A DNA stretch of 64,000 nt from an uncultured Gemmatimonadales bacterium. Lineage in GTDB: Bacteria; Gemmatimonadota; Gemmatimonadetes; JACCXV01; JAHWKZ01. Where the stretch lies: assembly GCA_947259315.1 (NCBI GenBank), contig CAMYLR010000031.1:25228-89227 (forward strand). The letters run 5' to 3'. The translations under genes and the position numbers were made by a program. Every line of letters begins with the position of its first letter. The first letter of the stretch is position 1. This document shows positions 59,812 through 60,893 of the stretch, one piece after another. The notes below the pieces were generated by a model. That model searched no databases and was not told the origin of the DNA. It was given only the letters and a program-made list of their open reading frames with translations.

Positions 59812-59960
59812 CGGAGACGCAAAAACCTGTGCACCAACCGTGCCATATGGGTCACAAGGTGGTCGTTTCTATCAAAACGCGCGGTGGGTGTGAGAGGCGG
59901 TGGAACGGGGGCCGGTTTTTTTGCGAACGCCGGAGGCATCGTGCGCCTGAAGGCGCACCA

Positions 59961-60515
59961 TCATGGCTCGTCTTCGCCCCAGTACGGTTCTAGCTCCACC
60001 CCGAGCCCGTCGGCCAACCGGTTTACGAACGCGAAGTAGGCCGTGACCTGGGCGATGTCGAGGATGGCGGTGTCGTCAAAACCAGCCGAACGTAGCGTTT
60101 CCACATCAGATGGGGACATCGCCTGCGGCTCACGGGTCAGCTTGACCGCGTAGTCGAGCATGGCGCGATCGGTGGGGCTCAGCTTGGCGGTCCGGTAGTC
60201 GTGTGAGAGCTGAGACACCAGTTCGTCGTCGCGCGTCAGCCTACGGAGACCCGCTCCGTGATGCAGCAGTCAATAGTGGCAGTCGTTGGTCGCTGATACG
60301 ACGACCGCGATCATCTCGCGCTGAGCGCGACTCAAGGGCGAGCGACCACGCATGATCGTCTTGTAGAACTCGTAATGCCCAGTCAACGACTCGGGATTGA
60401 GCCCGTGGATCTTCAAGATGTGGTCGACCCGGCCATCGCGCCCCGATAACCGGCGATAAACGTCAGACAGTTGGCCCTCGGCATCGTCTTCATCGATCAT
60501 ATCGATCCACGCCAC
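59961..60515 (-). CDS. AhpD-like peroxidase-related enzyme, probable selenoprotein (Cys79-His-Tyr-Sec82)
   Basis: Two apparent short frames are one gene: they share a frame and are separated only by a TGA at 60272-60270. Reading through it gives 184 residues that fit the peroxidase-related AhpD family from end to end. The parts are AWIDMIDEDDAEGQLSDVYR, MIAVVVSATNDCHY, then Sec, LLHHGAGLRRL, LSPTDRAMLDYAVKLT and TAYFAFVNRLADGLGVELE. Family members have C-x-Y-C followed by H-H; the TGA sits exactly at the second Cys. A hairpin lies just downstream of it (separate entry). AhpD-like selenoproteins with CxxU are known from marine metagenomes. The product would reduce peroxides with its redox pair. 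The alternative is a simple nonsense mutation. The start is GTG 60515. Confidence 0.7.
60243..60259 (-). promoter_or_regulatory. Candidate bacterial SECIS hairpin
   Basis: On the minus strand, ACGGAG (60259-60254), loop CGGGT (60253-60249) and CTCCGT (60248-60243) form a perfect 6-base stem with a 5-base loop. The loop begins 16 bases after the in-frame TGA and has G at its second position. This agrees with the known bacterial SECIS rules for loop distance, size and an early G in the loop. It lies inside the coding region, as bacterial SECIS elements must. Confidence 0.55.
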
Positions 60516-60521
60516 GGTGGT

Positions 60522-60893
60522 TCAGCCTTTCGGGAGCAGTTGAGCGATGAGCGCCAGGATTAGCATGAGTTGGCCAAAACCGCCGAGCAGGCCGCTGGAC
60601 AACCGACGAAACGGCGTGCTCTGGTACCGTGTCAGGGCCTGAGCTAAGCCGTCCGCGATCAGCGGAAGCAGACACGCGATCGCAATCAGCACGGTTGGCG
60701 AGCCGAGCGCGATGAACGCCAGTGCGCCGCCGGCGTTACCCGCAATGAGTCCGGTACAGCGAGCGCAGATCGGCATCTGCCAGCCCATCACCGTCAAACA
60801 TCGGTCGGGGTTCCCATGGCAGCCGATGGCGAGCGCCGCGCGCGGTCTCAACGGCCGCGGCAAGTAGACGATTGGCGGGCGCTCGGGCGCCAT
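60522..60893 (-). CDS. DUF2085 membrane protein
   Basis: The 123-residue protein has the DUF2085 signature: a Cys/His pair (IGCHGNPDRCLTVMGWQMP) and CARCTGLIAGNAGG, then three hydrophobic helices. The Cys set CH...C...CxxC may bind a metal at the membrane face. Function is unknown. Its start overlaps the stop of the zinc-ribbon gene by one base. The selenoprotein gene begins six bases after its stop, so the three form an operon. Confidence 0.85.
   Translation of the reverse strand: MAPERPPIVYLPRPLRPRAALAIGCHGNPDRCLTVMGWQMPICARCTGLIAGNAGGALAFIALGSPTVLIAIACLLPLIADGLAQALTRYQSTPFRRLSSGLLGGFGQLMLILALIAQLLPKG

Follow-up and report, generated by a model that had tools for sequence, protein, structure and literature searches.

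On the minus strand of the window, the 64-kb stretch of DNA analysed here, two open reading frames in the same phase are separated by a single TGA codon, raising the question of whether they are the remains of one broken gene or a single gene in which UGA is read as selenocysteine (Sec). The original prediction had described this pair of frames with one TGA (60272-60270) between them, and the minus-strand reading of 60515-59961 bore this out: it is 184 residues long, residue 82 being the one internal TGA, and the mechanical ORF listing gives an 81-residue and an 85-residue ORF on either side of it. Such a pair is unremarkable on its own in this window, across which a mechanical scan found about 50 TGA splits flanked on each side by an open stretch of over 75 codons. 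What does go beyond chance, as judged from sequence comparison, is homology to one family (TIGR01926) from end to end and on both sides of the TGA. The read-through protein scored 160.6 bits against TIGR01926 over residues 2-175 (curated cut-off 81.8), which places it in this family and agrees with the expectation that read-through would give a full-length peroxidase-related protein; it also matched the Pfam CMD profile with 45.6 bits and showed 51-72% identity over its full length to 11 loci from several phyla. The features of the locus are as follows.

59961..60515, minus strand: putative AhpD-like (peroxidase-related, TIGR01926) selenoprotein gene, whose family match runs over the full length and through the in-frame TGA
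60515-60513, minus strand: start codon GTG, in line with relatives, which begin with MAWI
60270..60272, minus strand: in-frame TGA at residue 82, the second position of C-x-x-U and probably a selenocysteine codon; TGA in 41 of 41 first-survey loci
60243..60259, minus strand: putative bacterial SECIS element, a hairpin with stem ACGGAG/CTCCGT and loop CGGGT (60253-60249), supported by position conservation, compensation and codon bias
59963-59961, minus strand: terminal TGA

The neighbouring genes in the window encode a DUF2085 membrane protein and a protein that matches FG-GAP weakly. Among the 11 named loci, nothing was common to the gene neighbours except between close relatives (L052/L053; the KSB1 loci), and because the neighbours are not conserved across these loci they offer no operon clue to the substrate. 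Directly behind the terminal TGA, a perfect 7-bp hairpin (GTGCGCC-TTCA-GGCGCAC; 59940-59960, minus strand) was also observed. It is too near to be a SECIS element, lacks the loop G of one, and has no T-run like that of a standard terminator.

Conservation of the in-frame TGA

The first survey consisted of 61 genomes and a scan of named contig records that left out near records. In all 41 loci that were fetched and aligned, the codon corresponding to residue 82 was TGA, the named records with TGA loci coming from Blastocatellia, Thermoanaerobaculia, Pyrinomonadaceae, KSB1, Chloroflexi and Gemmatimonadota. Acidobacteria were also among the groups with TGA relatives above 45% identity, and the cultured firmicute Scopulibacillus darangshiensis DSM 19377 carries the same TGA. 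In a larger set of 102 aligned loci, TGA was present in every locus above 45% identity and TGC or TGT in nine more distant ones; the solved structures of the family likewise have Cys at the aligned position. The homologues thus carry either Cys or TGA here, as expected if TGA stands in place of the second Cys of C-x-x-C. The motif around the TGA is C79-H-Y-U82-x-x-x-H86, and in an alignment of 12 sequences Glu67, Cys79, Tyr81, position 82, His85 and His86 were invariant and the C-terminal part NRLADGLGVELEPYW was conserved. These invariant residues and the conserved C-terminal part indicate that selection acts on the protein sequence of the region behind the TGA.

These comparisons bear on other readings of the TGA. 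A Cys codon (TGC or TGT) is one base from TGA, and this GC-rich window has many frames split by TGA, as a dead gene with a Cys codon mutated to a stop would have it; yet the protein stays conserved behind the TGA (GVELEPYW at the end; 51-72% identity to loci from several phyla), and dozens of genomes carry TGA at the same place. With the TGA and the conserved downstream part common to other phyla, we regard a pseudogene as refuted and leave it a very slight probability. That this TGA is an artefact of sequencing or assembly, to which a draft genome of 33 contigs might be prone, is just as improbable, because the same TGA was found independently in dozens of genomes, including that of a cultured isolate, and this makes an error untenable. 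Codes that read TGA as an amino acid exist elsewhere, and a genome-wide change of this kind, with TGA standing for another residue such as Trp, would also open the frame. No point in its favour was found here: among the long ORFs of the window TGA is the most frequent stop (17 of 33), the gene has TGA as its own last codon, and homologues have Cys, not Trp, at the aligned position. A changed code is thus contradicted by stop usage, and is the least probable of these readings.

The hairpin behind the TGA

For a UGA read as selenocysteine in bacteria, the bSECIS rules ask for a loop of 3-9 nt on a stem of 4-16 bp, placed so that the loop lies 16-37 nt after the UGA, with G within the first two loop positions and an energy at the cut-off of -7.5 kcal/mol or lower (PMC13188914). 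The hairpin of this locus, ACGGAG-CGGGT-CTCCGT, is exactly as had been claimed: a 6-bp stem with a 5-nt loop that begins after 10 nt, with the loop 16 nt past the TGA and G at loop position 2. Its loop, stem, G and spacing agree with the rules; as to the energy, the 17-nt stem-loop alone has -6.7 kcal/mol, above the cut-off. A 30-nt stretch reached -7.5 kcal/mol, but its minimum was a different fold and only the centroid was this hairpin, and in a 41-nt stretch an alternative fold was better. Folding of the 30-41 nt stretch from the single sequence was no better than that of shuffles, and 16% of synonymous recodings gave an equally good SECIS-like hairpin (p = 0.16, non-significant for the single sequence). 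In Rfam, the region 59850-60650 matched nothing up to E = 5, so the hairpin has no support from any Rfam family. Judged by folding, the hairpin is modest in the window sequence and unexceptional alone, and the case for it rests on the comparison across the family.

In 62 distinct sequences sharing the hairpin register, 356 of 372 cells were paired (95.7%), compared with at most 50% when one arm was slid; when one arm was shuffled among the sequences, none of 2000 trials reached 356 paired cells (mean 347.6). Compensatory changes were found in L060 (ATGGAG/CTCCAT), in L120-L122 (ACGCAG/CTGCGT) and in the paralogue L094, whose stem is wholly different, CGCTGC/GCAGCG, with the loop CGGGA. The codons that form the stem are also biased: the second His is encoded by CAC in 54 of 54 sequences, as against 18 of 54 for the unpaired first His, Leu90 by CTC in 52 of 54 (background 34%) and Arg91 by CGT in 45 of 54 (background 10%). 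The nine Cys homologues showed no significant hairpin excess (smallest recoding p = 0.087) and used CTC for the Leu in two of nine. The compensation, the codon bias in the stem and the lack of a significant hairpin in the Cys homologues show, at the level of sequence variation, that the hairpin is under selection in the TGA family.

Selenocysteine machinery in the genome and in the class

A family search of the genome (2.4 Mb, 33 contigs, 95.8% complete) found selB on contig C4 (372 bits) and both selA (472 bits) and selD (366 bits) on C6. The tRNA-Sec on C24 was matched by Rfam RF01852 with 75.3 bits and called tRNA-SeC with anticodon UCA by ARAGORN, and its fold shows a long variable arm. 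The Sec machinery that the original prediction had supposed this genome to encode was therefore found, none of these components being absent. Sec-like TGA codons occur in three further genes of the genome, selD and two AhpD-type paralogues. The selD gene (G000:C6:214406-215329, L016, minus strand) carries TGA in frame at the Sec position near its N-terminus (VRCAGUASKL) and is predicted to be the Sec form of selenophosphate synthetase.

A sample of 198 genomes of the class was compared, 96 of which had a good match to the protein: 89 with the TGA version and seven with the Cys version only. Of the 89 TGA-version genomes 84 had selB, as against none of the seven with Cys only (Fisher p = 7e-8, uncorrected for relatedness and thus too optimistic because the sequences are related). 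Five TGA-version genomes had no selB match at E 1e-60 (G008, G042, G072, G106 and G172); selA was found in four of these five, compared with none of the seven Cys-only genomes, and the one without selA, G172, is 88% complete and in 830 contigs. G008 is listed as 99% complete, and its selB may be divergent or absent from the assembly. In the whole sample, selB exceeded the cut-off in 155 of 198 genomes, indicating that selenium use is common in the class.

With a UGA at a CxxC position, a conserved and compensated hairpin and a full set of Sec genes, the window gene almost certainly encodes a selenoprotein, in which UGA would be read as selenocysteine in an AhpD-like peroxidase-related enzyme. 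By the known pathway, SelD would make selenophosphate, SelA would convert Ser-tRNA-Sec to Sec-tRNA-Sec, and SelB would bind the hairpin and bring Sec-tRNA-Sec to the UGA; the ribosome would then yield the 184-residue protein, not an 81-residue fragment.

The two paralogues are AhpD-type selenoprotein candidates, each with a SECIS-like hairpin behind its motif: L093 (G000:C19:122843-123412; DCHYUTQAHANDLR) and L094 (G000:C3:48002-48457; GCPFUIDINAAGS). In an AHAHDLR group of Sec paralogues (L107, L108, L110-L119 and others), the hairpin loop lies 24 nt behind the UGA rather than 16, with a CGGGAA-type loop and compensatory changes from GAC/GTC to GAT/ATC. Tentatively, three AhpD-type selenoproteins of one genome may have diverged in both protein and SECIS, with the loop distance shifted (16 vs 24 nt) and the coding and RNA constraints repeatedly re-solved. 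If this is true and their substrates differ, the genome would possess its own small system for peroxides or disulfides based on Sec.

Active site, proposed reaction and known relatives

The enzymatic role of the selenoprotein is less certain. An AlphaFold2 model of the protein (pLDDT 87.8, pTM 0.83) superposed on the AhpD-like peroxidase-related structures 6k40, 3c1l, 2pfx, 2oyo and 2prr with TM scores of 0.80-0.86; these Cys-containing proteins share its fold and have CxxC in the same place, with Cys where the window protein has Sec. The codons of the active-site residues in the window are listed below.

60315..60317, minus strand: codon of Glu67, invariant; its C minus 12 spacing equals that of Glu118 in the M. 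tuberculosis AhpD relay (PMC3141380)
60279..60281, minus strand: codon of Cys79, the likely resolving partner of Sec82 in CHYU; invariant column
60258..60260, minus strand: codon of His86, invariant; its U plus 4 spacing equals that of His137 in the M. tuberculosis AhpD relay (PMC3141380)

The proton relay consists of Glu118, Cys130, His132, Cys133 and His137 in M. tuberculosis AhpD and of Glu36, Cys48, Tyr50, Cys51 and His55 in PA0269 (PMC3141380). In the window protein the set Glu67, Cys79, Tyr81, Sec82 and His86 is complete with the same spacings, as in an AhpD-like active site, and the M. tuberculosis residue that takes the place of Sec82, Cys133, is the one through which AhpD cross-links to AhpC (PMC6626918). 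Because of these relay spacings and the equivalence to Cys133, it is likely that Sec82 reduces a peroxide or an oxidised partner and that Cys79 resolves it. On the model of AhpD, Sec82 would attack a peroxide or a partner disulfide, for example that of an oxidised peroxiredoxin, after which Cys79 would resolve Sec82, with Glu67, Tyr81 and His86 serving as the proton relay. That the second residue would be the reactive one follows M. tuberculosis AhpD. A report on B. thailandensis, in which the first Cys matters more, counts against it.

A selenoprotein of this fold might also serve another use, such as reductive halogen removal or a carboxymuconolactone-type reaction, since the fold is common to the Bmp8 debrominase (TM 0.78, 20% identity) and other CMD-fold proteins. 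We consider such a use unlikely: among solved structures, the closest relatives are AhpD-like proteins of the peroxidase-related kind (28-39% identity), and the relay set of Glu, Cys, Tyr, Cys/Sec and His is complete. In the literature on these nearest solved relatives, no proven natural substrate was found.

As the original prediction had stated, CxxU members of the AhpD-like family are already known: 'AhpD-like protein, TIGR01926, CxxU' is listed as a bacterial selenoprotein family in a 2026 review (PMC13188914), the Sargasso Sea work of 2005, in which the family first came to light, reported 27 AhpD-like sequences with CXXU (PMC1088965), and the GOS data contain 299 AhpD-like 1 sequences (PMC2398784). 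The window gene shares with this family (TIGR01926 / COG2128; PMC1088965, PMC13188914, PMC9312934) the same model, the CxxU motif and a bSECIS-like hairpin behind the UGA, and no difference in kind was found. Other related profiles are more distant. NF041238 (AhpD_rel_CFYUT, alkylhydroperoxidase-related (seleno)protein) covers a related domain and is named for a CFYUT motif, but the window protein scored 59 bits against a cut-off of 175 and is not a member. For NF053654 (YciW-related (seleno)protein), a related AhpD-type selenoprotein, it scored 20 bits against a cut-off of 310, the paralogue on G000:C3 being nearer with 131.7 bits. M. tuberculosis AhpD (TIGR00777) has the same five-residue relay by spacing, but a score of 20.2 bits against a cut-off of 191.95 puts the window protein outside the true AhpD subfamily.

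Overall, the window gene is a well-supported further member of a described selenoprotein family, of which the motif and the SECIS type are known; it confirms the description of the family and does not extend it in kind. Its annotation matters for the redox physiology of the lineage, because gene callers that treat TGA solely as a stop would split the gene into pieces of 81 and 85 residues.
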